A stretch of 64,000 nt of DNA. It comes from Rickettsiella endosymbiont of Dermanyssus gallinae. GTDB taxonomy: Bacteria > Pseudomonadota > Gammaproteobacteria > Diplorickettsiales > Diplorickettsiaceae. The position numbers and the translations under genes were made by a program. Under the pieces are notes generated by a model. That model made no database searches. It was given only the letters and a program-made list of their open reading frames with translations, and was not told the DNA's origin. Location: NCBI RefSeq assembly GCF_019285595.1, contig NZ_CP079094.1:1247001-1311000 (forward strand). The letters run 5' to 3'. Of the stretch, positions 28,098 to 57,676 are shown piece by piece; the first letter of the stretch is position 1; each line of letters begins with the position of its first letter.

Positions 28098-29315
28098 TCA
28101 GGAGAACCTACCCTCGAATTCGATAGCGAATCGATTCATAGCGGCTCTCCAATCATGTAAAGCCATCGTCCACTTTTGTGATGCCTTCTGTACCGCTAAA
28201 TATACTACTTTTAATGCCGATTGGTCATTAGGAAAGATTTTACGATTATTAATTGATTTTCTAATCACACTATTGAGTGATTCAATGGCATTGGTGGTAT
28301 AAATAATTTTTCGTATGTCGTCAGGATAATCGAATAAGGTCACCATATTACTCCAGTTTTTATGCCAGGTACGGCTAATGGCGGGATATTTTTTATCCCA
28401 TTTTTCACTGAACATCAGAAGCGCTTCTTCGGCTTGCTCTATAGAAATAGCACGGTAAATAAGCTTAAGATCCGCTACCACGGCTTTCATGTCCTTATGC
28501 GGTACGTAGCGTAAGGAATAACGAATAAGATGCACAATGCAGAGCTGAACCTTCGTTTTTGGGAATACCGCGTTTATTGCCTCTGGAAACCCGCTTAGTC
28601 CATCCACGCAAGCAATAAAAATATCCTTTACCCCACGATGATTTAATTCGGTTAATACAGATAGCCAAAATTTTGCACCCTCGGTTTCAGCTATCCACAA
28701 GCCGAGTAATTCCTTTTGTCCTTCACAATTAATGCCCAAAGCCAAATAGATGGATTTATTGATCACACGTTTATCTTGATGGCATTTAATAACGATACAA
28801 TCTAAATACACGATAGGATATACCGTTTCTAAGGGGCGATTCTGCCACACCGTCACCTCATCCATCACGGCTTCAGTCACTTTAGAAATCAAGCTGTGCG
28901 ATACCTCCGCACCGTACATTTCTTTGAACGTCGCCGCTATATCACGGGTAGTCATCCCTCGGGCATACAGCGCTAAAATCTGTTCATCAAACTCCGTCAA
29001 GCGCGTTTGTCCTTTGCGTATAAGTCGAGGTTCAAACGTACTATTTCGATCCCTAGGCGTGTTAATCTCAACTTCGCCAAAATCACCCTTTAATCGCTTC
29101 GGTGAATAACCATTGCGGCTATTTCCCGTATTCTTGCCTTCTATCGCGTGCTTTTCGTAGCCTAGATGCTCCTCTAGCTCTGCATCCATGGCTCGTTCTA
29201 CCGTGAGCTTTAATAGCTGCTTGCTCAGCGCAGATATATCTTTTTCACTCTTTATGGATTTAGCCAATTCACTGATTAATTCGGGAGCTATATTTATTTC
29301 TTGTTCTTGTTTCAT
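28098..29315 (-). CDS. IS256-family (Mutator-type) transposase
   Basis: A full-length 405-residue DDE transposase of the IS256/MULE group. It has LTVERAMDAELEEHLGY and the following NSRNGYSPKR segment near the N terminus, a helix-turn-helix around LYARGMTTRDIA, and the catalytic region VYLDCIVIKC (first Asp, about 170), ACVDGLSGFPEAI (second Asp, about 236) and the signature CIVHLIRYSLRYV. Family length is about 390-410, so it is probably intact and active. The element inserted just behind the 29388-30296 gene. Confidence 0.96.
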   Translation of the reverse strand: MKQEQEINIAPELISELAKSIKSEKDISALSKQLLKLTVERAMDAELEEHLGYEKHAIEGKNTGNSRNGYSPKRLKGDFGEVEINTPRDRNSTFEPRLIRKGQTRLTEFDEQILALYARGMTTRDIAATFKEMYGAEVSHSLISKVTEAVMDEVTVWQNRPLETVYPIVYLDCIVIKCHQDKRVINKSIYLALGINCEGQKELLGLWIAETEGAKFWLSVLTELNHRGVKDIFIACVDGLSGFPEAINAVFPKTKVQLCIVHLIRYSLRYVPHKDMKAVVADLKLIYRAISIEQAEEALLMFSEKWDKKYPAISRTWHKNWSNMVTLFDYPDDIRKIIYTTNAIESLNSVIRKSINNRKIFPNDQSALKVVYLAVQKASQKWTMALHDWRAAMNRFAIEFEGRFS

Positions 29316-30634: not shown

Positions 30635-32152
30635 CTAACCTAATCTTTTATGGACATAGAGATTAAAAAACTCTTCTGATGAAATTAATTTCTTTATATC
30701 AATTTCGGAGTTTAATACATCCATAATATAGCAATCAGGCCGAATTAAGTACGCCAATGCTTTTAAAAAAAACTCGTTTTTTAATTTATTCCATTTTTTT
30801 TCTATTAGAATTAAATTTATTAGCGAATTAGTTTTAGTGTAATTAGAGATATTTTTATTATCGAAGAGGATTAGATTAAATTTAGTAGGACAAAGAACGT
30901 CGTATATTGATCTTTCATCATCTAGCTTAAAATTTGGCATTCTACTCCCAATTATGGGTGACCTGTTTACCTTGTTATAATTAACTCTATATTGCGAAAT
31001 TATTTCCACTTCTTTTAAATTATAAAAATCTATTCCTAATGTGGCCTTGGATAATATAGAAAAAAATCGTTTAATAGGCTTATGCCCAAAAACAACTTTG
31101 CTTATAAAATTATTGTAGTCAAATAACTTATTAGCAACTGCCTTCCTTTCCGCATTATAGCTATTAAGGATAGATTGACTCCATCCATTCTGAAGAACAA
31201 AAGAAAGTTTCCAGCCAAGGTTAAATGCATCCTGTATTCCGGTATTAAGGCCTTGTGATCCAATAGGACTTTGAATATGAGCGGCATCTCCTACATAAAT
31301 TACCTTGTTTCTATAAAAACTATTTACAACGTATTGCTTTGGATTAAAAGTAGATATCCATATGGGATCCCCAAACTCTATATTAGAATAATGTAAATTA
31401 CATAGGTGTTTTTTAAACAGTTCAAGTACAGAATTATTCGTATATTCAGTTTTATTTTTTTCTGTAGTAATGATTCTATAAATAAAATTATTCCCATTAT
31501 ACGTAATAGGCATAATGTAAAGGAAAGAATGCATTAAATAAAATAGATGCCGCTGATCAAAAGCTAAAGGTAAATTTTTTATAGGAATATCCGCCATAAG
31601 AAATGTTTCATCATCTTCTTCGCCATGAAAAATCATCCCATCAGACTTTCTAATAGCACTGTGTCCACCGTCGCAAGCAATTAAATAATTTGTCCTAATA
31701 TTACTGTGAATATCGCTGCGATTATTGTAAATGTAACACGTTATCCATCTATCATTACGTTCAAACGAGGTGAGTTCTAACCCACGTTCTACTGTAGTAT
31801 CTAAATTTTCAAGTTGATCATTAAGTATTTTAGTAGTTATAGATTGTGAAATTTGTAATATAAAATTATACTTACTATCAAGACGACTGAACTTGGCTTG
31901 GCCAAGTTTATATTTATTATAAAAATAATTGAGGTAATAAGACGGTATACCCTCTTTTATTATATTTTCAGCTATACCAATTGTATTTAAAAGCTCTAAT
32001 GTGCGTGACGTGATTGTCATAGCCTTACTTTTGCTTGACCAGGTATACGCTTTATCAATGATTTTATAAGAAATATTAAATTTCTTTAAAATTATTGCTA
32101 GTGTCAGTCCTACAGGACCTGCACCTACGATCAATACATCACACTCAACCAT
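30635..32152 (-). CDS. FAD-dependent aromatic monooxygenase (PHBH family), 1
   Basis: A 505-residue flavoprotein hydroxylase of the FAD_binding_3 group. It has the Rossmann motif VLIVGAGPVGLTLA at residues 5-18, the DG segment LIACDGGHSAIR near 166-177, and the GDAAH motif YVGDAAHIQSPIGSQGLN near 286-303 followed by TGIQDAFNLGWKL. Its start overlaps the preceding monooxygenase gene by 8 bases, so the two are co-translated. Such enzymes hydroxylate aromatic or polyketide rings with NAD(P)H and oxygen. In a trans-AT PKS cluster it is a probable tailoring enzyme. No membrane segment. Confidence 0.9.
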   Translation of the reverse strand: MVECDVLIVGAGPVGLTLAIILKKFNISYKIIDKAYTWSSKSKAMTITSRTLELLNTIGIAENIIKEGIPSYYLNYFYNKYKLGQAKFSRLDSKYNFILQISQSITTKILNDQLENLDTTVERGLELTSFERNDRWITCYIYNNRSDIHSNIRTNYLIACDGGHSAIRKSDGMIFHGEEDDETFLMADIPIKNLPLAFDQRHLFYLMHSFLYIMPITYNGNNFIYRIITTEKNKTEYTNNSVLELFKKHLCNLHYSNIEFGDPIWISTFNPKQYVVNSFYRNKVIYVGDAAHIQSPIGSQGLNTGIQDAFNLGWKLSFVLQNGWSQSILNSYNAERKAVANKLFDYNNFISKVVFGHKPIKRFFSILSKATLGIDFYNLKEVEIISQYRVNYNKVNRSPIIGSRMPNFKLDDERSIYDVLCPTKFNLILFDNKNISNYTKTNSLINLILIEKKWNKLKNEFFLKALAYLIRPDCYIMDVLNSEIDIKKLISSEEFFNLYVHKRLG

Positions 32153-33635
32153 AATAAATATTATTATCTAATGACAACTCATTTTCGTGTTCAATAACTC
32201 TAAAAATAAATAAATCAGGGCGTATAATTAAAGCAAGCCCAGATTTAATTAAACTAACTACATTATGTTCATAAAGGCTTTGATTTACTAAATTTTCTAA
32301 ATTACTAATTGTTGATAAATCAATATCTATTGAGTTTAAATTTATACTAGATTGCAATAAAAACGATTTAAACTTAACAAAGTGATCCTTATTAAATAAG
32401 ATACTCCATTTACCGATTAATAGGTCATCTAATCTATTTATTTCATTGTTTTTTGAAATGAAAATAGAAGGGAGCCAAGAGCCGCTTGAAAATACCCCAC
32501 TATTCATAGAAGCTAAAGCCCTAGGTAGAGGTTTTATTTTTCTATAGTAATGACAATTAATTGGCTCTGAATCTTTTGTTTCTGCTATATCTTTAGTTAA
32601 ATTATGGATAAACTGCATTGTTTCTTTAATAGCTGCAGAACGTTCATCATTATATGTGGCTAGAAGCTTAGGAGAGGATTTCTTTTGAATAACGCTTGCT
32701 AATTTCCAACATAAATTATATGAATCCCTGATTCCAGAACACATTCCTTGCCCGCCATATGGTGGGATCAAATGCGCTGCATCACCAAGCAAGTAAACAT
32801 TATCTACAGAAAGGTTTTCTGCCAAACAAAAATTTCGCTTGTATATTCTTGAACGTATGATATGAGGATTCTCGTCTTTTATAAAATCTTCCAAAAGTAA
32901 CTGTATAAGGTTATCGCTGTTTTTATCCACAAAATTAATTGCAGTAGGTATTTTAACTTCAAAACGACGCATTTTTGGTGGAAAATTAATTGTGACGCAA
33001 GGAAACTTATAAATTCCATTTTTTGCAATGTTTTTTATGTTATCCCTAATTTTTTGGCTATCATAAAGGTCAATGACAACCCAATCTTCACCAGTACCTA
33101 ACTCTTCAAACTGTATTCCGCACAATCTACGTACAGAACTTTTAGCGCCGTCACATCCAAGAATATAATTGGCTTTTATTTGAACGACTTTTCCAAGATA
33201 AAAGACGTTTATTAAATAATAATCGTCTTTTTTTATAAAGTTAAGGATCTCACATGAAGAAATAAATGTTACAAATTTTGAAGCATACAATTTGCCCCGT
33301 AAAATCTTTTCTAATTCTGGTTGATAGAATGTTGATAAAATAGGGTATTCAAAAGGACGATAAGTCTCGTTTGGTATGAACTGCTTATAACCACTTGGCG
33401 TAAAATATTCAATTTTTGGTTTATTACATAAGTTTTTTATCTCTTCATCTTCAAGACATACGTTTCTTAAAATACGTAAAGTTTCATCATCAATACCAAT
33501 AGCTCTAGGATAAGTGTAAGCCGTGTGTTTTTTATCAATTACTAAACTCTTAATATTAAATTTCTCTAATAAGTGAGCAGTAACTAAACCAACTGGTCCG
33601 GCCCCAACGATTAATGCAGTATATTGTTTTTCCAT
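32145..33635 (-). CDS. FAD-dependent aromatic monooxygenase (PHBH family), 2
   Basis: Second flavoprotein hydroxylase, about 496 residues from the ATG at 33635 (MEKQYTALIVGAGPVGL); a GTG at 33647 is also in frame. It resembles MhpA-type 3-hydroxyphenylpropionate hydroxylases: a GAGPVGL FAD motif, ILGCDGAKSSVRRLCG near 163, and LLGDAAHLIPPYGGQGMCSG near 285. It overlaps the next monooxygenase and follows the MDR reductase after 18 bases. The two hydroxylases are diverged, so they probably act at different positions or on different intermediates. Substrate not readable. Confidence 0.9.
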   Translation of the reverse strand: MEKQYTALIVGAGPVGLVTAHLLEKFNIKSLVIDKKHTAYTYPRAIGIDDETLRILRNVCLEDEEIKNLCNKPKIEYFTPSGYKQFIPNETYRPFEYPILSTFYQPELEKILRGKLYASKFVTFISSCEILNFIKKDDYYLINVFYLGKVVQIKANYILGCDGAKSSVRRLCGIQFEELGTGEDWVVIDLYDSQKIRDNIKNIAKNGIYKFPCVTINFPPKMRRFEVKIPTAINFVDKNSDNLIQLLLEDFIKDENPHIIRSRIYKRNFCLAENLSVDNVYLLGDAAHLIPPYGGQGMCSGIRDSYNLCWKLASVIQKKSSPKLLATYNDERSAAIKETMQFIHNLTKDIAETKDSEPINCHYYRKIKPLPRALASMNSGVFSSGSWLPSIFISKNNEINRLDDLLIGKWSILFNKDHFVKFKSFLLQSSINLNSIDIDLSTISNLENLVNQSLYEHNVVSLIKSGLALIIRPDLFIFRVIEHENELSLDNNIYYG

Positions 33636-33653
33636 TGCAATTAGCACACGTTA

Positions 33654-34898
33654 TCAATGTTTCATACAGTGCATACTTTCTATTTCTTCAGTAGAATTAT
33701 CTTTATTTACTAAGCTCATATCAAATACAATTTTTCCTCTGGTATGCCCCGTCTCTATCGCCCTATGTGCTTCAGGTGCTTGAGTAAGAGAAAAAATTTG
33801 AGAAACACATGGATCAATTTTTCCAGATTCTATATGCTCAACCAATAAACGTAATCCTTCAGCGTTAGGTTCAAAAAATGAATAATTGAAATATCTTCCA
33901 AACTCACTCGCCTGGAAAGCTTTATATTTTAATGTGTCAGAAACAAATTGCTGCATACCTGCATGTAATCCTTTTGAATCAGTAAGCGGCATCATCGGTC
34001 CAACAATAGAAATGTATTTTGCTGAATAAGGTAATAGTTTAGCTAATTCAATATCAAAATCCTTAAGTATTTTTTTATAGCTAGGAACGGTCCAAGTTGT
34101 ATCAGCAGATTCAAGTTGCGCTAGCCCATTATCTAATAACACTTTAATACCAGAGATAATCGAAGAATCTGGAGAAGTTTTTTTTAAGCAAGATAACATC
34201 GGTTCTATATTAGACTTTCCAAGTAAATCATAGGCAATATCACAATCATTTATCGTAATCGCACTCTCCTTCTCATAATCTATAACTTCATCAGCACCAA
34301 GCTTGCAAACATATTCAATATTTTTACTGCTGCAACTAGTAACAATGTATGCACCCATTGCCTTTAAAAACTGAATGGCATAACTTCCTATACCTCCAGC
34401 ACCCGCAGAAACAAAAACTTTTTTCCCCTTATAATCGTTATAATGCATACCGGCTTGGCTGATTAAGGCACTATAGGTTGTCAGGGCAACATAAGGCAAA
34501 GAAGCAGCCTGAATATAATCGATGTTATTAGGCTTTTTTATGATTTCAGAAATAGGCACACAGACATATTTCGCATGACTCCCCTGCTTCATTCCTGCCA
34601 CTCTAAAGGGACTCACTACACCAAAAACGCTATCGCCCTCCCTATATTCTTCTACATTAGCTCCAACTTTAATAATAACGCCTGAAAAATCTCTCCCTAA
34701 TATAATAGGTAATGGGGTCTTTTCTGAAAAAATCGCTTTACCATATCCCGATCTTATTCGAGCATCAATTGGATTTATCGATGCCGCATAAATTTCAACA
34801 AGCACTTCTTCTTCGCTCGGTTGAGGCATCGGATAATCTACTAATGCTAATGCTTTAGTTGGATCGATATTATATTGTTTAAGAAGCATTACTTTCAT
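33654..34898 (-). CDS. MDR-family zinc-independent oxidoreductase (quinone reductase-like)
   Basis: A medium-chain dehydrogenase/reductase of 414 residues from ATG 34898, chosen because GGAG lies 7 bases ahead (the ATG at 34910 is within the ribosome-binding region). It has SINPIDARIRSGYG and LGRDFSGVI in the GroES-like part and GAGGIGSYAIQFLKAMGA for NADPH binding near 155. A C-terminal AIETGHTRGKIVFD segment is typical of quinone reductases. No structural zinc cluster is visible. It sits 20 bases after the PKS gene and may act as a trans-enoyl reductase on the polyketide chain; a stand-alone quinone reductase is the alternative. Confidence 0.87.
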   Translation of the reverse strand: MKVMLLKQYNIDPTKALALVDYPMPQPSEEEVLVEIYAASINPIDARIRSGYGKAIFSEKTPLPIILGRDFSGVIIKVGANVEEYREGDSVFGVVSPFRVAGMKQGSHAKYVCVPISEIIKKPNNIDYIQAASLPYVALTTYSALISQAGMHYNDYKGKKVFVSAGAGGIGSYAIQFLKAMGAYIVTSCSSKNIEYVCKLGADEVIDYEKESAITINDCDIAYDLLGKSNIEPMLSCLKKTSPDSSIISGIKVLLDNGLAQLESADTTWTVPSYKKILKDFDIELAKLLPYSAKYISIVGPMMPLTDSKGLHAGMQQFVSDTLKYKAFQASEFGRYFNYSFFEPNAEGLRLLVEHIESGKIDPCVSQIFSLTQAPEAHRAIETGHTRGKIVFDMSLVNKDNSTEEIESMHCMKH

Positions 34899-34917
34899 TT
34901 TTTTCTCCATAAAGTTA

Positions 34918-37900
34918 TTAATTGATAAGTATTTCTATTTCTTTTAAAGCCTGTTGTGCAAAAATAGAAATATCTGAAGCTATAGAATAAGCAATGTCAC
35001 CATTTCTTATGAAAAAATGATCTCCATTATACTCATTTAATTGCATCAATGAGGTTGTTAGATGTGACCAAGCATCTACTTCTAATTTATCCACACGGTC
35101 ATCCTTCAATCCATGTAGCGCAAGGATAGGCTTTGAAATTTTATCTATATGTTTAGGGTAAGAATCAACAACACATAAATCAGCTAGTAATATTTTAAGA
35201 AAGTACTGTGCTTCACCCTCATTTAATTTTAAGTTATCCATTTGAAATATTGATAATAAAACTGAAATCTGTTTTCTATCTAAACACTTTAGGCTCCTTA
35301 TGGTTACTAAATCTAGCCCAATTTTTTCTAAAATTTTCTGCTTTATCTTTTTAAGCCATGGGTTTTCTTGAAGTCCTGGAGCAGAGCAAGCAGCAACGAT
35401 TACCCCTAATGCTTGCTCTATAGTGTTAAAATGGAGCATTAATCTAAAAGCGATTAAAGCTCCAAAGCTATGACCATAAAATAAAAAAGGTAACTCAGTA
35501 TGGTTTTGAATTAACTCAGGTAAACAGCTATTAAATAATTGAATATCTGTATATAGGTTTTCATTTTTACGATCTTCTCTTCCTGGAAGCTGAATTGGAG
35601 AAAGGTGTATCCAGCTAGGTAAATGTTTTATTAAATTGTTAAAAACAGAGGCTCCAGCCCCACCATAAGGAATAGCATATAAAACACATTTTGCTTCAGG
35701 GCTGATTCTAATGTTTTTTATCCATTGATGTATCTCAGTACGGGTACTATGAGAATGAATTTCAGATTTGTTGCCTTCTAAATCAAAGCTACTTTGATCT
35801 ACTCTTTTTAAAATAGATTCAATACTAATATCATTAGTCAGGTCTATTATATCTAGCTTATTAGATAGCCAAGGATCCAGTTTTTCTTTTAAAATCAAAG
35901 CCGAAATTGAATCTAATCCATAATTTGTCATGGGAAGTTTCATATCGATAACGTCTTTGTGTTTTATGCCGAGTAAAGCACAAAATGTATCTATTAAATA
36001 CTTTTCAAATTCAGATGGGTCTTTAAATTTGTGCGATATTGGTATATTTTCCAACGTTATTTTACTTAAATCCAAAGTAACCTTCTTCATAAAACAACCG
36101 GTTATTTTGGCTATAATTAAGTTATCTGAATCAAATAAATTAAGATTGCCGATAAGTTCATCTTCAGTCTTATCTACTATATCTATTAGGCATTTAATAT
36201 CAGTTAAATTGGTTTTTGAATTAAAAAATACAATCTCTTCCATTGAAGCTACCATGTACTTTACTTTTTCATTTACACAGTAGCTATGCATATGGAAAGC
36301 TTGTGCGCAACAATCAAGCACCTCAGAAGAAAATGGCAAGAGATTCTCTGCTATAGATTCTGATTTAATATGCACTAAAAATTGTTTTTCTTCTATAACA
36401 TCTATTTTAATTATTTTTTTAACTTTATCGCCAAGTGATAAGTCTAAAGATTTATTTAAATAATTATAGAAAGAATCACCGGATAAAGTTTTATATTTCC
36501 TCTTTCCAGGACAAGTCAAATCATTTTCAAACGCAACCCTATATTCAATTTTACCTTCTACGTGCTTTGTCCAAATAGTATCTGAATGTAATTTAGATAA
36601 AAAAGCCCATATATACTGGGATCCATAGGAAGTAATTCTAATAATTACTTTTTTATCAATATTTTTCTTAAAAATGATCGGGCAGAAAAAAATCATATTT
36701 GAAATATGAAATTTTCTATCGCCTCCTAATGTTATGAGCAATAAGTCTATATATATTCCTATATGCACAACATTATGTGTGGCTTGAATACTTTCATAAT
36801 TAAATATAGCTTTTGTTATATCATAATACTGAATATCACTAGGCATATCTAACAAAGTCGTGCAGCTAATAGCATCCTGTTTTTGGGTTTTTATTAGTTT
36901 GGGCCAAAAAATATCTTGCTCGAATGCATAGGTAGGCAATGTAGTTTTTATATAATTTTTATTTTTATAATAATACTCCCAATTTATGCTTTCCCCTGCA
37001 TTTAATAGCTTATAAATAATATGACTTATCCAATCAGCACATACTGGATAATTAGAGTCTATTTCTAGAATATTTTTATTATCTACAGGTATCAATTGAA
37101 AATCTATTACACTATAAAATAGATCAGCGCCTATTTTATTCGGCTTATCTAAAACTTGAGCTAATAATTCGGGAGTTAGATTCTCGAAATTTACTATGTT
37201 TATCAATTTTGAAAAATTAATATTCTTACTTCTGTTTAATAAGTAGAATGGTAAAATACAAGACAATCCGCTATAGCACCATGTGCTGTTAATAAAAATA
37301 CTTTGTAAAATCTTAACTAAAGTTAATCCTGCAACCAGATATTTATAAATTAATTTACTCGGAGCTAGAGCTTGGTTTTCTGATAATAAACTAATGACTT
37401 CCTCGTATATAACTGGAAAATCATGTTTTATACCGCTAATATTATTAATAGCATTAATAATCAATTCATCTATAATTCCAAGCTTATTAGGGGACACTTT
37501 TAAAATTAAATTTGGTTTTTCAAGTACTTCATTAAGTTTAGTTAGTAAATCTTTTTTAGAATGTATCTCAAAATTAACGCGGTATTTATCAAAACTTCTA
37601 GAGATATTAGTTGTATGGCATATTTGAACAATATTAAGTCCATTATCATCCTCAATAGCAGCAATATATTTTTTTATATAGTTAATTAAGGAAACTTCCC
37701 TATTTGATGACAATGAGAACAAATACTTGCATTCATTTTTCTCGATAAGGTTTGGATTAATATTATAGTTTGATATTATTACAGCAGCGTTGGTCCCACT
37801 AAATCCAAATGAATTAATAGCTATAGCTTTATTCTTCATATCTACCGCTATAGCCCTATCAGCAATAGCAATTTCTGGAGTCAATCTAATACGAGGATTA

Positions 37901-39099
37901 ATAGCTTGTAAACTTAGCGAGTATGGAACAATACAATTATTTTTTAGCATTAATACAGCTTTAATAACACCTGCAAGACCAGCACATGCCTCCGAGTGCC
38001 CCAAATTAGTCTTTGATGATCCAATATAGAGGGGAATTTCCCTCTCGTGAGGGTTTTCAAATATGCTTTCCTGGATAGCTTTAAATTCAATAGGATCGCC
38101 AAGAGGTGTGCCTGTGCCGTGCATCTCGTAATAAACTATCTGGCTTGGAGTTAAGCCACTGTTTTTCAGTACAGATTGAATCAACTTTTTCTGGGCTAGC
38201 CCATTAGGTACAGTTAAACCACTACTATGTCCGTCATGGTTAGTTTGAATGGATTCTATAACTGCCAAAATATTGTCATTGTCCTTAATAGCTTCATCCA
38301 ATCTCTTGAGGAGAAGCATAGCACACCCTTCAGCACGGCCGTATCCATCAGCTTTTGCGCTTAACGTTTTACAATAACCATCTGAAGCAAGCGCTTTAAT
38401 ATTGTTAAGCTGATTGTATACATATTCCTCTAAAATAAGGTTAGCTGCGCCTACCAATGAAAACTTACATTTGCGATTTAAAAGTGAATTACATGCAAGG
38501 TTTAATGCCACAAGCGAAGAAGAGCAGGCTGTGTCAATCGTAATAGCCTCCCCTTCATATCCCATAGTAAAAGCAATGCGTCCTGAAAGAATACTTGAAA
38601 GCGTTCCAGTAAGCGTGTACGAGTTGCTGTGCTGATGCTTATTTAGGATTTGATTAAAATCAGATCCTATACATCCAATGTAAACCGTCGTATCTTTATC
38701 AAGTTGTTTTGCATTATAACCAGCCTGTTCTGCTGCCTCCCAAACAAGCTCTAATAGAATACGTTGTTGCGGATCCATATCCTCCGCCTCTTTTGGCGAA
38801 ATACCAAAAAATAGTGGATCAAATTTTGCAATACTTTCTAAGTAAGAAGCTGGATAACTCAAACTTAGGCCTGTTTCAAACTCTCTTGTTTCTGGATAAT
38901 TGTTGTTAACAATTACGCCTTCTTTAAGCAGTTGCCAATATTTCTCTATCGTATAACAATCATTCGGAAAACGGCATGACATCCCTACTATGGCTATTTT
39001 TTCTTTTTTCTTTCCATTATCTAAACGTTTGATAATGGAAACGGATTTTTCCAATAAGGTTTTTAATTTTTCATTTTCTTCTTTTAGGGAAATCGTCAT
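34918..39099 (-). CDS. Trans-AT type polyketide synthase KS-DH-ACP-TE
   Basis: A 1393-residue PKS protein. An N-terminal coiled docking helix (EENEKLKTLLEK) is followed by a ketosynthase with DTACSSSLVA (Cys about 190), HGTGTPLGDP (about 328) and NLGHSEACAG (about 366). About 280 residues with no AT active site end in LPTYAFEQDIFW (about 725), the linker that normally follows an AT, so the AT is a remnant. Then come dehydratase (HNVVHIG about 776, VLDCCAQ about 929), ACP (GLDSI about 1065) and thioesterase (GHSFGALIAF about 1207). No ketoreductase is visible. The TE makes this the terminal protein. Its start is adjacent to the end of the upstream PKS gene, and malonyl loading would come from the AT at 44186. 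Confidence 0.93.
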   Translation of the reverse strand: MTISLKEENEKLKTLLEKSVSIIKRLDNGKKKEKIAIVGMSCRFPNDCYTIEKYWQLLKEGVIVNNNYPETREFETGLSLSYPASYLESIAKFDPLFFGISPKEAEDMDPQQRILLELVWEAAEQAGYNAKQLDKDTTVYIGCIGSDFNQILNKHQHSNSYTLTGTLSSILSGRIAFTMGYEGEAITIDTACSSSLVALNLACNSLLNRKCKFSLVGAANLILEEYVYNQLNNIKALASDGYCKTLSAKADGYGRAEGCAMLLLKRLDEAIKDNDNILAVIESIQTNHDGHSSGLTVPNGLAQKKLIQSVLKNSGLTPSQIVYYEMHGTGTPLGDPIEFKAIQESIFENPHEREIPLYIGSSKTNLGHSEACAGLAGVIKAVLMLKNNCIVPYSLSLQAINPRIRLTPEIAIADRAIAVDMKNKAIAINSFGFSGTNAAVIISNYNINPNLIEKNECKYLFSLSSNREVSLINYIKKYIAAIEDDNGLNIVQICHTTNISRSFDKYRVNFEIHSKKDLLTKLNEVLEKPNLILKVSPNKLGIIDELIINAINNISGIKHDFPVIYEEVISLLSENQALAPSKLIYKYLVAGLTLVKILQSIFINSTWCYSGLSCILPFYLLNRSKNINFSKLINIVNFENLTPELLAQVLDKPNKIGADLFYSVIDFQLIPVDNKNILEIDSNYPVCADWISHIIYKLLNAGESINWEYYYKNKNYIKTTLPTYAFEQDIFWPKLIKTQKQDAISCTTLLDMPSDIQYYDITKAIFNYESIQATHNVVHIGIYIDLLLITLGGDRKFHISNMIFFCPIIFKKNIDKKVIIRITSYGSQYIWAFLSKLHSDTIWTKHVEGKIEYRVAFENDLTCPGKRKYKTLSGDSFYNYLNKSLDLSLGDKVKKIIKIDVIEEKQFLVHIKSESIAENLLPFSSEVLDCCAQAFHMHSYCVNEKVKYMVASMEEIVFFNSKTNLTDIKCLIDIVDKTEDELIGNLNLFDSDNLIIAKITGCFMKKVTLDLSKITLENIPISHKFKDPSEFEKYLIDTFCALLGIKHKDVIDMKLPMTNYGLDSISALILKEKLDPWLSNKLDIIDLTNDISIESILKRVDQSSFDLEGNKSEIHSHSTRTEIHQWIKNIRISPEAKCVLYAIPYGGAGASVFNNLIKHLPSWIHLSPIQLPGREDRKNENLYTDIQLFNSCLPELIQNHTELPFLFYGHSFGALIAFRLMLHFNTIEQALGVIVAACSAPGLQENPWLKKIKQKILEKIGLDLVTIRSLKCLDRKQISVLLSIFQMDNLKLNEGEAQYFLKILLADLCVVDSYPKHIDKISKPILALHGLKDDRVDKLEVDAWSHLTTSLMQLNEYNGDHFFIRNGDIAYSIASDISIFAQQALKEIEILIN

Positions 39100-42000
39100 C
39101 TATGCAACTCCTTGAAAAAAACTTTCAATTTCTTTTAAAAATTCATCGGGTTTATCAATTTTTTCAACACTATGTAAATTACACATAGATTCAGTTGAAT
39201 CATTCTTTGTATTAAAAAAATGACATATGTATTGGGCTAGAGTTTCACAGGTATTATAATTAAAAATATCCACATCCTCTAACGATAAGCTTAATAAGCT
39301 ATTTAATTCACTAATAATCTGCAAACACATTAAGGAGTCCATTCCTAGCTCAAAGAACCCTTTATCAACATTAATTTCACTAAGTTCATAACCTAAAACT
39401 TTACTTACAATAGTTTGAACCTGTTTTATTAAAGTTGATTTAGTGACTGTTTTAGAAACAGTTTGAGAAACAGGCTGAGAATCACATTCTTTATTAATAT
39501 TAATAAATGAATCTGAAAAGCTAAATACGTTTTTATATTTAGGAAGATAAGTATCATATGGCCAGTGACGTTTTTTTATAAACCCTCGGGGAGGAATTCC
39601 TAAACTAGGAATAGTTTTTGAATCTATAGCACTATCATTTATATTAAAGCCAAGTACCCATAGTTTTGCTACTTTGTCATACAAATGAATACTAAATAAC
39701 TCGTTAATTACATCACTTTTTGAATTTATATTTTCTTCTATTGCCTCTCCAACATATACAGTTTCACTAACTATCCCATCGTACCAATCAGCAAGTTGCT
39801 TTATTAACCCATCAATATTTTTTGTAACGCAAGCAAAGCGTGTTTTATGAGAATTCAACCTTGAAAGTGTTAATGCTAGTTGATGTAAATTAGGCTTTAC
39901 AAGTTTAATATACCGAGTTAATCGCATTATATTTTCTTTCAAACAGGCAAGGTTTCTTGCCGAAATAACAATTAACTGCTCTTCATCTAACTGACTAGCT
40001 ACATACGGAACTGAAGTAGTTTCTTCAACTAATACATGCACATTTACCCCACCAGCTCCAAATGAGTTGATTCCAGCCTTTCGCATATTTGCTTCATCAT
40101 CTACATTTTGAATTGGTTCCCAAAAATGCGTCGCTCGGTTAACAACAAAGGGCGAATTATTAAAATCAATATATTGGTTATAAGTTGGACTAAAAAGAAG
40201 AGATGGAACAAGTGTTTTATACTGTAACTGTAAAGTAACCTTAATGAGTTGCACAATACCAGCCGCAGCCTCAGCATGACCTATATTGGATTTTACAGAA
40301 CCAATATAACAGCCATAACTTTTAATTTTCCCTGTAAAAACTTTCAAGAGTCCTTCTATTTCAATTGGATCTCCGAGTAATGTTCCTGTTCCATGAGCCT
40401 CCACATAGGTAATATCATCCCCTATCCATTTTGCATCATTTAGCGCATTTTCTATACATTGCGCTTGAGCATTTGGGTCTGGCACAGTATATCCATTCGT
40501 TTTCCCTCCATGACTTACCCCTGAGCCCGCAACTTTTGCTAATTTATTTAAATTAAATTCCGATACGATATCTCCTCTGCATAATATTACAGCCCCTATT
40601 GCTTCAGCTGGAACATAGCCATCACCATCTGAACCAAAAGCATTACAATGCCCTTTGGAAGACAAAAATCCATGTTTAATCAACATTTCATATTTACTTG
40701 GATGAAGCGTTAAATTAACCCCACCAACAATTGCCAAATCACATTCATTTGATCGGATGCTATTTAATGCTAAATGGAAGGCATAGAGCGAAGAGGAACA
40801 TGCGGTATCTATAACCAAACTTGGCCCAGTAAAATCAAAAATATAAGAAACTCTATTTGCAATAGAGTAAGTTTGAGAGTTTATAGACGTGGCATGAGCT
40901 TCAGAACTTTCAGCTAAAATCAACTGATAGTTGTTAAATGTGCTACCAACAAAGACGCCAATCCGCTTTTTTTGTTCTTTAAGTTTTTTTAATAGCTTCT
41001 TGTTGATTCCTGCATGCTCCAAACATTCTTCAGTAACTTCTAAAAACATTCGTTCCTGGGGATCCATAAACAGAGCTTCTTTAGGAGATATACCGAAATT
41101 TTCCGCATCAAACTTATCAATATCTGCTATAAAACCACCGGAAAAAGGTTCTCTATAATCTTTATTATGCATTTTTATATAATGATCTTTTAAGGAACTT
41201 GACCAACGTTCTTCAGGAACTGAAGTTACAGAATCTTTTTCATTTTTTAGATTTTCCCAAAATTCAAAAATATTATTTGCTTCTGGAAATCGCCCTGCCA
41301 TACCAGCAATAAAAACTTGTTTATCGTTTTTTGCATTATGACTTGAGCATCTAAGTGGTTTGTTTTTGACTTGACTATCGGTTTCTTGATTTGAGTTAAG
41401 AATTTTTTCTATTCTGCCAATTAAATCACCTATATTTTTCGATTCAAAAAATATAGAAATAGGAATATTGCCGTATTTTTTGGTTATTTCGGTGTGCGCT
41501 GATAAAATGACGATAGAATCAACTCCAAATTCAAATAAAGAATTACTTTTGATAGTTGATATTTCACCCTTAATACCCAGTAAATTTATTAATTCTTCAA
41601 TAAAGTTAGGCGAAACCTTTTCTTTTTCCTCTATTACCTCTTTATTTACTATTAAATTAGTTTCATTGGTTTTCCAATAAATTTTTTTATCGAAAGGGTA
41701 TAGTATTAATGGTTCATTTTTAAATAAACTTCTTGAATAAATTGTATCCCAATCAATTTTATAGCCCTTTTTCCATAAAAATATCAATATAGATAAGATA
41801 TCTTTTTTATTTTGAACTGGAAAAAAATTTTTAGTCGTATGTTCTAGCTTCTTTATATCATCAACAAAAATTACAGGGATAGAGCCAAACCTATCCTGCA
41901 TATTTATGACAGACTTTGTATCATTTCTGGCATTAAATCGCTTTCGCCATGAGAAAGGTAAATTATTCTCCTCAAATAATGATACCTCTTCAGAATCTAA

Positions 42001-42951
42001 ATCTATTTCGTCATCTGAGTTATTAGTAATAATCTCATAAATATGTGCAATATTTTTTTTATTCAACCCGATAGAAAATTTTAGATAGTTTAAATTAGCA
42101 TCTTTATTAAATACGTCAATTTTAAATCGATCTTCGATAGATTGAATAGCCGCTATAGACGATAAACAATATATAGCATCCTTATGGACTTCACCCTTTT
42201 CATTACTAGATAGTAACCTTTTATGATATTCAAATTCCTCTTTAAAGCTCTTATTTGTGGAATGCAAAAAAGTTGTTTTGTCTTTAAACTTAGTAAAAGC
42301 AATAGTATCTCCTAAAAGAGAAGTATATATGGCTCTTATAGCTTCTGCGCTAATATAAGCAGGAGTTATGATCTCATTTTCAGACCAAATAGCACACCTG
42401 TATAAATAGGAGAACTCTTTTGGATTACATTTATTCATACTAAGAAGGAATTCATCCATCATAGCTTGGCTGCTCGGAATCAGAATATCTATTCTAATAC
42501 CGGCTTTTAATATTTTACTAACTAACGAAATATTTTTTTTATTTAACTCGCCAATGTATAAAGAAATTTTTTTGCTTTTAGAGCACAAAGGTTCATAGTT
42601 TTTTTCAGCTTGAATGAGATTATCTAAAAGATCTTTTTTTCTATGAAATTGTGTTATATAGCGATATTTTAACGGTTGTCGACTAAGAAGTGCATTCAGA
42701 CAAAATTGATTTATATTTTTCTCGTCACAATCTTTTAATCTATCTTTAGATATTCGTATGAGATTTTTTAAAGCACTTATTGATTGAGCCGAAACTGAAA
42801 ATGGAATATTATAGTCGGCTATTTTGTTGAAAGAAGCATGAGAAATATCATCTTCAACAAATTTTTGTAAGATACAATGTCCATTAGCACCTCCAAAGCC
42901 AAAAGAACTTACCCCTGCCTCTTTATAGAGTTGCCTTGATCCGCTTCCCAT
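39100..42951 (-). CDS. Trans-AT type polyketide synthase (end of KS)-ACP-KS-ACP
   Basis: 1283 residues read from an internal ATG. The first 30 residues (EAGVSSFGFGGANGH) are the end of a ketosynthase whose main part is in the overlapping gene at 42909-44153; total length across both is one base short of a multiple of three, so a single-base deletion near 42910-42945 splits one gene. Next come an AT-less linker ending LILYPFDKKIYW, ACP1 (FGVDSIV, about 475), a second ketosynthase (DTACSSSLYA about 714, HGTGTLLGDP about 853, NIGHAEAAAG about 889) and ACP2 (LGMDSLMCLQ, about 1204). No AT, KR or DH is visible. It abuts the terminal PKS gene with no gap. Confidence 0.9.
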   Translation of the reverse strand: MGSGSRQLYKEAGVSSFGFGGANGHCILQKFVEDDISHASFNKIADYNIPFSVSAQSISALKNLIRISKDRLKDCDEKNINQFCLNALLSRQPLKYRYITQFHRKKDLLDNLIQAEKNYEPLCSKSKKISLYIGELNKKNISLVSKILKAGIRIDILIPSSQAMMDEFLLSMNKCNPKEFSYLYRCAIWSENEIITPAYISAEAIRAIYTSLLGDTIAFTKFKDKTTFLHSTNKSFKEEFEYHKRLLSSNEKGEVHKDAIYCLSSIAAIQSIEDRFKIDVFNKDANLNYLKFSIGLNKKNIAHIYEIITNNSDDEIDLDSEEVSLFEENNLPFSWRKRFNARNDTKSVINMQDRFGSIPVIFVDDIKKLEHTTKNFFPVQNKKDILSILIFLWKKGYKIDWDTIYSRSLFKNEPLILYPFDKKIYWKTNETNLIVNKEVIEEKEKVSPNFIEELINLLGIKGEISTIKSNSLFEFGVDSIVILSAHTEITKKYGNIPISIFFESKNIGDLIGRIEKILNSNQETDSQVKNKPLRCSSHNAKNDKQVFIAGMAGRFPEANNIFEFWENLKNEKDSVTSVPEERWSSSLKDHYIKMHNKDYREPFSGGFIADIDKFDAENFGISPKEALFMDPQERMFLEVTEECLEHAGINKKLLKKLKEQKKRIGVFVGSTFNNYQLILAESSEAHATSINSQTYSIANRVSYIFDFTGPSLVIDTACSSSLYAFHLALNSIRSNECDLAIVGGVNLTLHPSKYEMLIKHGFLSSKGHCNAFGSDGDGYVPAEAIGAVILCRGDIVSEFNLNKLAKVAGSGVSHGGKTNGYTVPDPNAQAQCIENALNDAKWIGDDITYVEAHGTGTLLGDPIEIEGLLKVFTGKIKSYGCYIGSVKSNIGHAEAAAGIVQLIKVTLQLQYKTLVPSLLFSPTYNQYIDFNNSPFVVNRATHFWEPIQNVDDEANMRKAGINSFGAGGVNVHVLVEETTSVPYVASQLDEEQLIVISARNLACLKENIMRLTRYIKLVKPNLHQLALTLSRLNSHKTRFACVTKNIDGLIKQLADWYDGIVSETVYVGEAIEENINSKSDVINELFSIHLYDKVAKLWVLGFNINDSAIDSKTIPSLGIPPRGFIKKRHWPYDTYLPKYKNVFSFSDSFININKECDSQPVSQTVSKTVTKSTLIKQVQTIVSKVLGYELSEINVDKGFFELGMDSLMCLQIISELNSLLSLSLEDVDIFNYNTCETLAQYICHFFNTKNDSTESMCNLHSVEKIDKPDEFLKEIESFFQGVA

Positions 42952-44153
42952 GCAATCAACCTATTTGCAACTCTAATGTTAGAACCTGTTAATTCTAATA
43001 GCGGATTTTCAGCATTATAATTAATAGATGCCGGTATTACGTCTTTTTGCATCATTAAAATAACTTTAATAATACCCGCAATACCAGCTGCGCCCTCAAG
43101 ATGACCAATATTAGATTTTACAGAACCAATATAAAGCTGCTGTTTAAAGTTAAATACCTCCTTAATAGCATGTACTTCAATTGGATCTCCCAAAGGGGTA
43201 CCCGTCCCATGAGTTTCAATATAAGATATATCTTGAGGTTTTAGTTCGGCGGAATCTAAAGCTTTACGGAGCAAATCAACTTGTGCTTTTTTAGATGGTG
43301 CAGTTATTGAATTGTTTTTCCCATTATGTGAAAGCTCGATAGCATTAAGCACTGCATAAATATGCGCTTTTATTTTTTTTGCCATTTTATAGGTGGTTAG
43401 TAATAGTACGCCTGCTCCTTCTCCTTGGACATAACCATCCGCAGCTGCATCAAAAGTTTTGCATATACCATTTGCTCCCAGCATATGCGATTTTGAAAAA
43501 TCTATATAACGAAGCGGGTGGCTTAAAATATTTACGGCACCGACGATGCTAAAACAACATTGTTCCTGACGAAGAGCATTAAAAGCTTGTTTTACTGGCA
43601 CAAAGGATGATGCACATGCCGCATCCGAAGAATAGCTTTCTCCAGTAAAATTAAAATGATGAGAGATTCTATTAGATAAAGCACATGCATAATTATTAAT
43701 ACACGTTTTAGCTTTAACTTTTATGTCATCTTTATTTAAAATCCTTAATAAATAGTCAAATGCCATTCCAGCCATGTATACAGAAGTAGTATAATTTTGG
43801 AGGGTAGCCAAATTAATGGCAGAGTCTTCGATACAATGCCAGGTTTCTTCAAGTAAAATCCGCTGTTGCGGATCCATTTGCTCGGCATCCATATCCGAAA
43901 TATTAAAGAAACCGTTATCAAATTTATCAACATCCGCAAGTAACCCAATCCACTTGCTTTTAATTATATTCTTTTCATACAATAAGCCTGCTGAAAAACG
44001 TTCATCTGGTATTTCTTTAATACTAGCTTTTTCTTTAATTAAATTAGATATAAATTTTTCTTTATCCTCGGCATCAGGAAAACGGCATGACATGCCTATA
44101 ATTACTATATCTTCATCTCTATATTTATGATCTTTAGGTAATTTATTATGCAT
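42909..44153 (-). CDS. Ketosynthase N-terminal part, split from the PKS by a frameshift
   Basis: 414 residues of a ketosynthase: IVIIGMSCRFPDAED at the start, MDPQQRILLEETWH near 95, an active-site segment SSDAACASSFVP (Cys about 178), THGTGTPLGDPIEV near 315 and KSNIGHLEGAAG near 347. The motif is DAACAS instead of the usual DTACSS, but the catalytic Cys and both His residues are present. The frame ends at GNSIKRQG and continues, after a one-base shift, in 39100-42951 with LYKEAGVSSFGFGG. The KS is therefore complete in DNA but split in translation. Follows the acyltransferase gene by 32 bases. Confidence 0.88.
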   Translation of the reverse strand: MHNKLPKDHKYRDEDIVIIGMSCRFPDAEDKEKFISNLIKEKASIKEIPDERFSAGLLYEKNIIKSKWIGLLADVDKFDNGFFNISDMDAEQMDPQQRILLEETWHCIEDSAINLATLQNYTTSVYMAGMAFDYLLRILNKDDIKVKAKTCINNYACALSNRISHHFNFTGESYSSDAACASSFVPVKQAFNALRQEQCCFSIVGAVNILSHPLRYIDFSKSHMLGANGICKTFDAAADGYVQGEGAGVLLLTTYKMAKKIKAHIYAVLNAIELSHNGKNNSITAPSKKAQVDLLRKALDSAELKPQDISYIETHGTGTPLGDPIEVHAIKEVFNFKQQLYIGSVKSNIGHLEGAAGIAGIIKVILMMQKDVIPASINYNAENPLLELTGSNIRVANRLIAWEADQGNSIKRQG

Positions 44154-44185
44154 ATGTATTAATTTATAAGTTTATAACTAAATAT

Positions 44186-45052
44186 TTACATGATTTCACT
44201 ATTACTTTTTATATTATTAATCATATTAGTAAGTAGTTTTCTTTCACCAATTTCAATAAATGTTTCGTAACCCTGAGAAATAAGATATTTAATAGATGCA
44301 TGCCATTGCACCGGATAAATTAACTGATTCACAATTTTTTCTTGAACTTTTATATTTTCGTAAGGTTTACCATCCACATTAGATATAACTTCTTTGTTAA
44401 TTTCTTTAAAACTTATATGTTCAATTTTATGTTTGAACTCAAATAATGCTTTATTCATTAGAGGGGAATGAAATGGCCCGCTTGTTCTAAGCCTAATAAT
44501 GGCTTTTGCCCCAGCATTTCTCATTGTAGTTTCGACAAAATCAATAACAGTTTCATGACAAGAAATAATCGTCTGATCAGCTGTATTTATGTTCGCTATA
44601 TAGGCTAAGCGATCAAATTTTGTCTCCAATATTCCTTTTATTTCTTTTAATTTCATTCCAAGGATTGCTAGCATGCCACCAGTTTTAATATGAGACATCG
44701 CTATACCTCTTGCCTTTACGATTTCAAGACCCGTTATTAAATCAAAGGCCCCTGCTATTTGTAAGGCATTTAGCTCACCTAAACTATGACCAATAAAAAT
44801 ATAATCTTTTTCTTTGCTTATATTTTCATTTAAATCAAGGTAAGAAAGTGCATTAACCATGTAAATTGCGGGTTGCAAAAATTGTGTATCATTTAGCTTT
44901 TCTGTAGGACCATCGATACATAATTTTTTAATATCAAATCCGCAAAATTCGCTAGCCGCCGAAATGAGCTTAGGATATTTTTTAAAAAGGACTTCTCCCA
45001 TTCCTAGGTATTGTGAACCTTGGCCGGGAAACATAACGACTATTTTTGACAT
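44186..45052 (-). CDS. Discrete malonyl-CoA:ACP acyltransferase (trans-AT, FabD-like)
   Basis: A 288-residue FabD-type acyltransferase with VVMFPGQGSQYLGMG near residue 5, the nucleophile motif GHSLGE (Ser about 87), a conserved Arg in VKARGIAM near 113 and the His partner in RTSGPFHSPL near 195. The two neighbouring PKS proteins have no functional AT, so this is the likely trans-acting AT that loads malonyl units onto their ACPs. It lies between the PPTase gene and the PKS genes in one leftward run, with a 37-base gap to the PPTase end. Confidence 0.94.
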   Translation of the reverse strand: MSKIVVMFPGQGSQYLGMGEVLFKKYPKLISAASEFCGFDIKKLCIDGPTEKLNDTQFLQPAIYMVNALSYLDLNENISKEKDYIFIGHSLGELNALQIAGAFDLITGLEIVKARGIAMSHIKTGGMLAILGMKLKEIKGILETKFDRLAYIANINTADQTIISCHETVIDFVETTMRNAGAKAIIRLRTSGPFHSPLMNKALFEFKHKIEHISFKEINKEVISNVDGKPYENIKVQEKIVNQLIYPVQWHASIKYLISQGYETFIEIGERKLLTNMINNIKSNSEIM

Positions 45053-45089
45053 TTAACATCCTTGTTATTATTAAATTTTTCTTTAAAGG

Positions 45090-46104
45090 CTAAAGATAAT
45101 TTAAAATTTTTTGATCTAACAAACTATAATATATTACTTCTTCTTTACAGGGCGTACTAACTGCAGTAGCAGTATAGAGTTTATCAATATTCAAAGGAAA
45201 GAGTTTCCAGGTTATACTTTCTTTTCTTAAATTCTTTAGCCAAGCTTTTGTGGGAAACTTTGTCATATCAACTGATAAATTATTGAGGCTGCTTGTTAAG
45301 CCGCACCCCTTTGCTTTTAAATAAGCTTCTTTACGTGTCCAGCAACGAAAAAAAGCTTTAGTTTTTTCCTCTTGGTTTACTAATTTCGAGAAAAAAACCT
45401 TTTCTTTCGATGAGACAGGAAAGCATTGTGAAAGCAATGCGAAGTCGAAGAGCCCGCGATAGGCGTGCGTTGACGGGCGAAGCAGGAAACGCATCACGCC
45501 GTAAAGTCATTTGTGGGAGGCACGGGCATGAACTCCGAAGGAGTGAGTGCGTGCCGGACGCAGGACGTATCGCGGCCTAATTTCAGTCGCGTCATGCGAA
45601 CGAATTTCGGGGACACGATGGCCGAAATTCTTCGGGAGCATAGCGACTCACTTGTAAGGAAAAAATAATGTTGCTTAAATTTTCTATAGGAATACGTTCT
45701 GAATGGTACTCAATATCAATGCCAATAGGATCTTCTATTGTTATCGCAATTAAAATAACGCGATGAGAATGGGTAATATTAAATTCCAATTTAAGCCAAT
45801 TTTGTTGTAAAGCGATAGCCGGTTTACCTTGTTTATTAGATGTAAACATTATCTTTTCTGGTAGCCCACTTAAATAATGCGCAATGATTAATCGTTTCAT
45901 ACCATGGGTAATCGCATAACGAAAACGATCCTTTTCAAATTTGAAAGCATTTAAACGCCTCTTTTCTTCTTCTGAAAAAAAGAAGACTAAGGATTGCCCC
46001 GTTTCATTATCAATCTGATCCAGATCGGCTTTCCAAACATGTATTGCCGAACAAGAAATACGCCATGGGTCTGTAGGCGGTTTTTCCCACAAAAATTTAT
46101 TCAA
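45090..46104 (-). pseudogene. Sfp-type phosphopantetheinyl transferase, interrupted by the 247-bp element
   Basis: PPTases activate the carrier domains of PKS and NRPS proteins. Coding parts are 46104-45655 and 45407-45090 on the minus strand: 450 + 318 = 768 bases, exactly 256 codons. When joined they read IIFSLKEKVFFSKL, matching IFSPLERSYFSKL in the paralogue at 54174-54964. The family motifs lie on opposite sides of the insertion: DPIGIDIEYH in the first part and RCWTRKEAYLKAKG in the second. The start codon is TTG. With the element read through, translation would stop about 20 codons into it. Both parts are free of other damage. Located next to the AT and PKS genes. Confidence 0.9.
45408..45654 (-). 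mobile_element. 247-bp structured interspersed element, copy B (in PPTase gene)
   Basis: Exactly 247 bp and identical to copy A except for one base in a bulge. In the gene's sense it sits between TCCTTA and AAAGAA; joining the flanks restores the reading frame, with no target duplication. Orientation is sense to the PPTase gene. All stems described for copy A are present. Confidence 0.93.
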
Positions 46105-46570: not shown

Positions 46571-46738
46571 TGAAACAAAAAAAATATGATGAATACAATT
46601 CTTTTTTGATTTCACTCAATGACATTTTGTTGAAAAAATTATCCATACTAATAACACTAGCTTTAAAATAAATCCTCTATTTTTCCTAATAGAATGTTAA
46701 CTTATTTTTTAAAATTTTTATGTGATAATAATTTTTAT

Positions 46739-47399
46739 TTAGGCAGCTTCCTTTAATAAATTCTCTTCAATAGCTTCTACCAACTGTTCAGTTAGAATAG
46801 GTTTTATTAGTACTTTATCCGCTCCTAATGCTAGGCATGTATCTTCCTTTTCCTTATCAATATGTGTTGAACAAGCAATCAAAGGTGTTGATTGATTTAA
46901 ATTACAGTCACGAGCTGCTTGAATAACCGCTTCACCAGGTTGATCAGGTAACCCTAAGTTAATTAAAATTAAAGCGTAAAGTTTATTACTAACTAGGTTA
47001 ATAGCTTCTTCTGCTGTTTTAACCACATACGATGAGACAGGAAAGCATTGTGAAAGCAATGCGAAGTCGAAGAGCCCGCGATAGGCGTGCGTTGACGGGC
47101 GAAGCAGGAAACGCATCACGCCGTAAAGTCATTTGTGGGAGGCACGGGCATGAACTCCGAAGGAGTGAGTGCGTGCCGGACGCAGGACGTATCGCGGCCT
47201 AATTTCAGTCGCGTCATGCGAACGAATTTCGGGGACACCATGGCCGAAATTCTTCGGGAGCATAGCGACTCACTTGTACCTGGAAGCCTAGGTGAGTTAA
47301 CTGAGAATGAATTGCCATCTGGCAAACAACATTATCTTCAACTAATAGGGCAGGTAAAAAGTGGTAACTTCTCTCTTCTTGATACTCTAATGCTTCCAT
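46739..47399 (-). pseudogene. Receiver-domain response regulator, interrupted by the 247-bp element
   Basis: Coding parts are 47399-47277 and 47029-46739: 123 + 291 = 414 bases, exactly 138 codons. Joined, the sequence reads LGFQV-YVVKTAEEAI, the usual end of helix 1 and start of strand 2 of a CheY-like domain. ALLVEDNVV (acidic residues) and LIKPI (Lys) are present, but the phospho-acceptor position reads LINLGLP, Asn where Asp is expected, so this is probably a pseudo-receiver. There is no output domain. It lies upstream of the kinase remnant and PPTase on the same strand. As it stands, translation would run about 20 codons into the element and stop. Confidence 0.87.
47030..47276 (-). mobile_element. 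247-bp structured interspersed element, copy D (in receiver gene)
   Basis: Exactly 247 bp. One base differs from copy B, again in the apical loop of the GAATTTCGG hairpin. It sits between CAGGTA and TATGTG of the receiver gene, sense orientation, no target duplication; removal restores the frame. Confidence 0.93.
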
Positions 47400-47468
47400 T
47401 TTAATCCCTTGCCGTAAAAATTTTTGGTGACAGTAATTTTTAGCCTTACTTATAAAGTATGAAAAACC

Positions 47469-57351: not shown

Positions 57352-57676
57352 TTTATTACCTTTTGTAATGAGAGAATCTATTGAGAAAGCTACATTCCTA
57401 TGCTTATCTCTGACTATCCATTCTGCCCTTAGATCCATCTATTAGTAATTTTCTATAATAACTATATTTTATGATTAAAAATAGATCATAAAATATTATA
57501 AATGGTGAATAGTTGTGTGGAAATCAATTTGAGAACTTCTAAATTTTAATTTCTAATAAAAATGCTTAAATGCATTCAAATTTTAGGACTAAATAGAAAA
57601 TTTGTAGCTATTGTTTAAGTTTAAAAGATATAGTAAAAGCATGTTTTTTAATTATAAGAATAAAAACTAAAAGTAT
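57352..57676. other. 325-bp divergent intergenic region
   Basis: Separates the leftward hybrid kinase from the rightward NRPS. Strongly AT-rich, with no gene seen. It must hold both promoters; I could not assign -35/-10 boxes with confidence. The first part (to 57438) is open in the kinase frame. Confidence 0.5.

Follow-up and report, generated by a model that had tools for sequence, protein, structure and literature searches.

What can a short run of polyketide synthase (PKS) genes with no recognizable ketoreductase (KR) make in an intracellular symbiont of a mite, and can it still be making it? The question is raised by seven minus-strand open reading frames (ORFs) at 30635-45052 of a 64,000-nucleotide stretch (the window) from the Rickettsiella endosymbiont of the poultry red mite, D. 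gallinae, whose genome is a single contig of 1,888,715 bases (GenBank CP079094). The ORFs encode a FabD-like acyltransferase (AT), a ketosynthase (KS1), the multidomain proteins PKS1c and PKS2, a medium-chain dehydrogenase/reductase (MDR), and two flavin hydroxylases, FMO_A and FMO_B (Table 1). Polyketides are not mentioned in the main text of the genome paper (PMC8446615). In our reading, to which we give a probability of about 0.6, the run is a compact, non-reducing line of the trans-AT type that would make a short aromatic or pyrone acid oxidized by the two hydroxylases, and it is intact in a sister Rickettsiella and decaying in the mite symbiont. Systems of this kind are known; the variant is undescribed.

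A short line without ketoreduction

Pfam and NCBIfam recognized three KSs (PF00109, E values of 2e-74, 2e-67, and 7e-68), three acyl carrier proteins (ACPs; PF00550, 2.3e-23 with two stretches in PKS1c, and a third carrier in PKS2), one thioesterase (TE; PF00975, 9e-18), the FabD-like AT, the MDR, and two FAD_binding_3 hydroxylases. With E values from 1e-18 to 1e-74, there is no doubt that these domain assignments are beyond chance. No KR family matched any ORF of the run at E<=0.01, and the PKS ORFs gave no Pfam match to an AMP-binding domain. The original prediction, made from the sequence without database searches, had listed the same parts in one leftward run, together with a dehydratase (DH)-like domain that we could place through relatives, and had noted the missing KR; both statements hold. 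The rest of the genome contains one further full KS (FabF-like) and one weak KS match.

The AT retains the GQGSQ, GHSLGE, R, and FHS motifs and scores just under the 260.9-bit cut-off of the FabD model TIGR00128. No Pfam AT domain follows KS1, KS2, or KS3, so that none of the elongation modules has an active AT of its own, and the FabD-like AT would need to serve ACP3 in trans. The best solved relatives of KS2 are trans-AT KSs (7zmc, 435 bits; 5erb, 434 bits), compared with about 267-276 bits for CurL and DEBS, the best cis-AT modular KSs, and on this evidence KS2 clearly looks like a trans-AT KS. In a KS tree, it groups with the penultimate KS of clusters from four other gammaproteobacterial lines (G046, G195, G210, and G019; support 100/98), and KS3 groups with the terminal KS of G210. 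Linkers of the RhiE/CurL type are present on PKS1c (PF22336, weak at E 2.9e-4, and PF22621) and on PKS2 (PF22621).

A terminal module with a dead AT and a noncanonical DH

The same four lines share with PKS2 a terminus in which a KS is followed by an intervening region, the DH-like domain (DH*), an ACP, and a TE. In G046 and G210, the roughly 300 amino acids separating KS from DH* are a dead AT: Pfam detects it at E=8e-5 in G046, which has lost GHSxG, and hhalign gives E=2.5e-6 against FabD-like ATs. The relic is more eroded in both Rickettsiella, where it has no Pfam match and is recognizable only via G046 and G210. The terminal module, that of KS3 here, thus descends from one with its own AT in cis and today depends on a different AT, which makes it a mosaic. 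The KS-to-ACP linkers of the mite symbiont and its sister gave no Pfam match even at E=10. A hidden KR or a cis-AT in the linkers had been named in advance as refuting the original prediction, and the outcome is divided: no KR was found, and the KS3 module family carries the dead AT.

DH* itself has no Pfam match in the mite symbiont and was recognized only through its relatives, a six-member profile of which matches the CurJ DH at E 7e-35. At the position of the catalytic His, all six members have Thr; they lack HxxxGxxxxP and share an invariant HxG at a shifted position, and DxxxQ is retained in five of the six. As judged from these residues, DH* is not a canonical dehydratase, contrary to its original description as one, and since the line has no KR, there would be no beta-hydroxyl for it to dehydrate. 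Its role is more plausibly related to cyclization or structural. The product template (PT) domain of fungal non-reducing PKSs was considered as an identity for DH* and rejected, since none of the 32 profile matches up to E=10 was to a fungal chain with a PT domain. Quite tentatively, the KS-(AT relic)-DH*-ACP-TE arrangement, with a DT...HxGxYxE-like motif replacing the dehydratase His, might represent a distinct ring-forming terminal module of several gammaproteobacterial trans-AT lines in which the DH fold is reused as a cyclase, the Rickettsiella line being the smallest version, with its AT built in.

The related lines are larger (loci L063, L067, L018, and L065, with the same terminal bimodule in G046, G210, G019, and G195). 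That of G046 also has nonribosomal peptide synthetase (NRPS) modules, an FMN-dependent dehydrogenase, and an aminotransferase, and that of G210 has a hydroxymethylglutaryl-CoA synthase cassette and a tandem AT. The G019 line starts with an AMP-ligase and has three KSs and then KS-DH*-ACP-TE, with KR absent among the families listed.

Intact in one lineage, broken in another

Among the 16 family genomes searched, a PKS2 homologue occurs only in the mite symbiont and in an uncultured Rickettsiella metagenome-assembled genome (MAG; CAMSHF010000001, G003), the sister. A scan of the genome contigs with the PKS1c protein found no relatives; one with the DH-ACP-TE alignment retrieved the sister MAG. 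There, AT, KS1, ACP1, KS2, and ACP2 form a single ORF of 1986 amino acids, followed downstream by PKS2 (1399 amino acids), the MDR, and two hydroxylases in the same gene order as in the window, and a homologue of the Sfp-type phosphopantetheinyl transferase (PPTase) is intact (254 amino acids). Identity to the sister is 60% for the AT (to residues 1-288 of the 1986-amino-acid PKS1), 74% for KS1 up to its break, 52% for PKS1c over its full length, 48% for the linker-DH-ACP-TE part of PKS2, 63% for the MDR, and 54% and 57% for FMO_A and FMO_B. Fusion of the AT to KS1 thus appears ancestral, with a probable order of AT-KS1-ACP1-KS2-ACP2, then KS3-(dead AT)-DH*-ACP3-TE. The AT first described as discrete is indeed a separate ORF here, split from KS1 by a stop and a different frame, but belongs to a single protein with KS1 in the sister.

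Ahead of its break, KS1 retains the active-site Cys (SDAACASS), HGTGT, and NIGH, while the FGFGG core is gone. Its ORF ends at 42909, and the remaining part of the KS (AGVSSFGFGGANGH...) is out of frame and opens the PKS1c ORF, which begins at an overlapping ATG 42 nucleotides ahead of the KS1 end. A programmed frameshift was rejected, a slippery run being absent at the site. Sequencing error, as judged from the published account of the assembly, is unlikely given a PacBio assembly polished in five Pilon rounds with short reads and a reported coverage of 3,712x (PMC8446615). Codon-position divergence indicates normal coding constraint in most genes, including either side of the KS1 break, at a level that in most genes of the run resembles that of an intact NRPS nearby; constraint is weaker in the KS1-ACP1 linker. 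Because constraint persists on either side of the break, the damage is probably recent.

The core enzymes that are intact in the sister are therefore not all intact in the mite symbiont, where KS1 is frameshifted, one PPTase is interrupted, and a second PPTase is frameshifted. The genome as a whole has 312 candidate pseudogenes, recently active IS256 elements, and ongoing pseudogenization (PMC8446615). Because KS1 is frameshifted, the line is very probably nonfunctional in the mite symbiont, a loss of activity that we infer from the genes themselves, and the cluster there is probably a pathway being lost.

Proposed working and alternatives

The substrate, product, and order of tailoring that we infer are as follows. 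The FabD-like AT would load malonyl onto all three ACPs, an acyl starter would enter at KS1, and three condensations without ketoreduction would give a poly-beta-keto chain, whose cyclization DH* would most likely shape. Release by the TE would then yield a pyrone or an aromatic acid, the latter resembling orsellinate in the case of an acetyl starter. The phenol would next be hydroxylated by FMO_A and FMO_B, a quinone may be reduced by the MDR, and the acid may cap a Thr/Gly-type NRPS product. The nearest solved relatives of FMO_A are 2-hydroxybiphenyl and 3-hydroxybenzoate hydroxylases and those of FMO_B are rifampin monooxygenase and PgaE, and both proteins have the FAD_binding_3 domain, GxGxxG, and GDAAH of group A (p-hydroxybenzoate hydroxylase-like) enzymes. 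By these comparisons, they are similar to enzymes that hydroxylate phenols and aromatic polyketides. An aromatic or pyrone-like product decorated by the hydroxylases, as originally proposed, fits a short non-reducing line with phenol-type hydroxylases, and the same terminal bimodule occurs in other lines, among them that of G019, with its AMP-ligase start and no KR among the families listed. We found no direct evidence for the host-active or defensive role that had also been suggested and count it as unsupported.

Several observations weigh against this reading. For both KS1 and KS3, CurL scores above the trans-AT KSs except 7zma and is the closest solved relative after it; CurL carries an active cis-AT. 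Because KS1 and KS3 rank CurL so high, the line appears to be a mosaic and not a textbook case of the trans-AT type. A starter-loading enzyme was not found in the cluster, so that the chain length is a guess. A cyclase role for DH* is not demonstrated by profile comparison with PT domains, and AlphaFold models of two KS-to-ACP linkers, built from two-sequence alignments, were unusably poor (pLDDT of 39 and 43). A third Sfp-type PPTase, intact at C1:1466928, could activate the ACPs, so that the PPTase losses alone would not silence the line; in the Legionella genomes analyzed, a single Sfp-type PPTase is present and AcpS is absent (PMC5126622). The trans-AT assignment of the original prediction is supported for KS2 and by the lack of an active AT in the modules; the KS3 module, with its AT relic, calls for a correction, and for KS1 and KS3 the comparison is ambiguous or leans toward CurL.

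A first alternative, which we think unlikely though not negligibly so, is that the TE lactonizes a tri- or tetraketide to an alpha-pyrone with no aromatic carbocycle and that DH* is merely structural. Such a role would agree with the missing product-template match, and in the short venemycin line it is the TE that cyclizes (PMC6941969). However, an HxG kept invariant across the compared lineages exceeds the needs of a structural remnant, and the pair of phenol-type hydroxylases is a better fit for a phenol than for a pyrone.

Comparably doubtful is the idea that the PKS and the NRPS at the right end of the window form one pathway to an aryl-capped Thr-Gly peptide, perhaps metal binding. Along its full length the NRPS shares 67% identity with one beside the sister PKS, which lies there tail to tail with the operon and its hydroxylases, and the PKS2 homologue and the full-length NRPS orthologue are confined to the same two of 16 family genomes. 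The NRPS also opens with a carrier that has no adenylation (A) domain ahead of it, its specificity codes are DFWNIGMVH and DILQLGVIW, which we take to be Thr-type and Gly-like, and genes resembling an NRPS-independent siderophore (NIS) synthetase and an MFS exporter, assigned by eye, are found near the sister cluster. Yet the PKS has its own TE, a ligase for loading an aryl acid was not seen, the co-occurrence is based on two genomes, and in the mite symbiont NRPS and PKS are separated, with the NRPS 12 kb off on the opposite strand.

Least probable is a cluster that still functions in the mite symbiont, in which AT and KS1 work as two proteins and the frameshift in KS1 is bypassed by reinitiation at the overlapping ATG, by slippage, or by a starter entering at KS2 that makes KS1 dispensable: the remaining ORFs are open with their catalytic motifs retained, the 42-nucleotide overlap would allow translational coupling, one PPTase is intact, and constraint in most genes is similar to that of the intact NRPS, but the lost FGFGG core, the absence of a slippery run, the two broken nearby PPTases, and the ongoing pseudogenization of the genome (PMC8446615) all speak for the decaying line that we favor.

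Neighboring genes

Beyond the seven ORFs, the cluster also takes in the interrupted PPTase (45090-46104) and, from 54970 to about 65180, the NRPS with a hybrid histidine kinase, a pair that adjoins the PKS in the sister. Between the halves of the split cluster are a MatE exporter (51849-53270, plus strand) and an aminoglycoside/hydroxyurea phosphotransferase-like kinase (PF04655; 53282-54193, minus strand). A second NRPS adjoins its own hybrid histidine kinase at 12358-14754. In the sister, the MFS exporter-like and IucA/IucC-like NIS synthetase genes, named by eye from translations, lie at L015:16849-19931 (minus strand), 5-8 kb past PKS1, and as a pair they recall lbtA/lbtB of legiobactin.

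The 246-bp element that interrupts the first PPTase is present in the window at 45410-45655, 46292-46537, and 47032-47277 (minus strand) and at 5194-5439 (plus strand). It has 56% GC and is strongly structured (fold z -3.6). Across the genome, nearly identical copies number at least 40, with 148 candidates at first look, and most of them have ..AC and AANGA as flanks. Several further genera of the family have relatives of 69-86% identity. An Rfam scan of 44000-48500 gave no family for the repeat, and the element is not among the insertion sequences listed in the genome paper (PMC8446615).

Table 1. Positions of the PKS run and of neighboring features in the window (residue ranges in parentheses; aa, amino acids; CP, carrier protein; C, condensation domain)
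Feature	Position	Strand	Basis or remark
AT, FabD-like malonyltransferase, 288 aa	44186..45052	-	PF00698, 4e-23; TIGR00128, 259.8 bits
KS1, truncated, 414 aa	42909..44153	-	Frameshift ahead of C-terminal FGFGG core
PKS1c, 1283 aa: out-of-frame KS1 tail, ~330-aa linker, ACP1 (~470-530), KS2 (544-982), ACP2 (1177-1242)	39100..42951	-	Pfam/NCBIfam; solved-structure matches
PKS2, 1393 aa: KS3 (33-445), degenerate AT relic (~530-760), DH-like (~755-1015), ACP3 (1029-1105), TE (1140-1377)	34918..39099	-	Pfam, profiles, relatives
MDR oxidoreductase, quinone-oxidoreductase-like, 418 aa	33654..34910	-	PF13602/PF08240/PF00107; TIGR02824, 149 bits, below cut-off
FMO_A, group A flavin hydroxylase, 500 aa	32145..33647	-	PF01494, 2.7e-53
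FMO_B, group A flavin hydroxylase, 505 aa	30635..32152	-	PF01494, 6.5e-71
Sfp-type PPTase, interrupted	45090..46104	-	246-bp repeat at 45410-45655, stop inside insert
246-bp GC-rich high-copy element in PPTase	45410..45655	-	See text
Receiver-domain (response-regulator-like) gene, interrupted	46739..47400	-	Element copy 47032-47277; domain named from sequence; similar 129-aa gene beside sister PKS1
Second Sfp-type PPTase	54201..54964	-	Frame changes between N- and C-terminal parts
Hybrid histidine kinase (PAS, HisKA, REC, Hpt)	54970..57438	-	59% identity to sister; adjoins NRPS as in sister
NRPS, CP-C-A-CP-C-A-CP-TE, 2504 aa	57671..64000	+	Extends past window end; domain types and motifs
Second NRPS, C-A-methyltransferase-CP-TE, 2414 aa	14784-22028	-	~690-aa N-terminal part almost without Pfam match
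IS256-family transposase	28098..29315	-	NF033543, 1.4e-128; flanks cluster

Relation to known systems and significance

Among solved structures, the best match for the KSs of PKS1c (803 bits over two stretches) is PDB 7zma/7zmd/7zsk, which we take to be a trans-AT bimodule of Brevibacillus brevis; its module makeup differs, and its own DH is weakly related to DH*. The closest solved relatives of DH* are the curacin DHs (CurJ/CurK/CurF), where CurJ has the catalytic His in place of Thr. The legioliulin cluster of Legionella is likewise a trans-AT PKS of an intracellular gammaproteobacterium, and its product is an isocoumarin fluorophore (PMC5126622, PMC11828895). Compared with it, by description only, the Rickettsiella line differs in its three KSs, in starting without an AMP-ligase, in having two FAD hydroxylases and an MDR, and, where intact, in the fusion of its AT to KS1. 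The architecture of G019 would suit an aromatic isocoumarin product. Our literature search on non-reducing trans-AT isocoumarin lines found nothing specific. The venemycin PKS is also a short line leading to an aromatic compound but has active cis-ATs, an A-domain starter, and an inactive KR, and neither DH* nor the hydroxylases are described there (PMC6941969).

Within the genus, Rickettsiella isopodorum has a PKS island with an 1862-amino-acid protein, A1D18_02135 (PMC5181103). G008, which we equate with that species from the length of its 1862-amino-acid PKS ORF only, carries another kind of PKS/NRPS hybrid, one that has KR and methyltransferase domains and is not orthologous to the cluster described here. 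A question about aphid pigment was earlier answered with the statement that Rickettsiella viridis lacks a polyketide synthase (PMC6016236); related species clearly can carry PKSs. A short polyketide pathway, probably to an aromatic product, is present in some Rickettsiella, apparently intact in one lineage and being lost in another. The conserved terminal module with its noncanonical DH offers a small system for testing ring closure in trans-AT lines, and the cluster in the mite symbiont provides an example of a symbiont shedding its chemistry.

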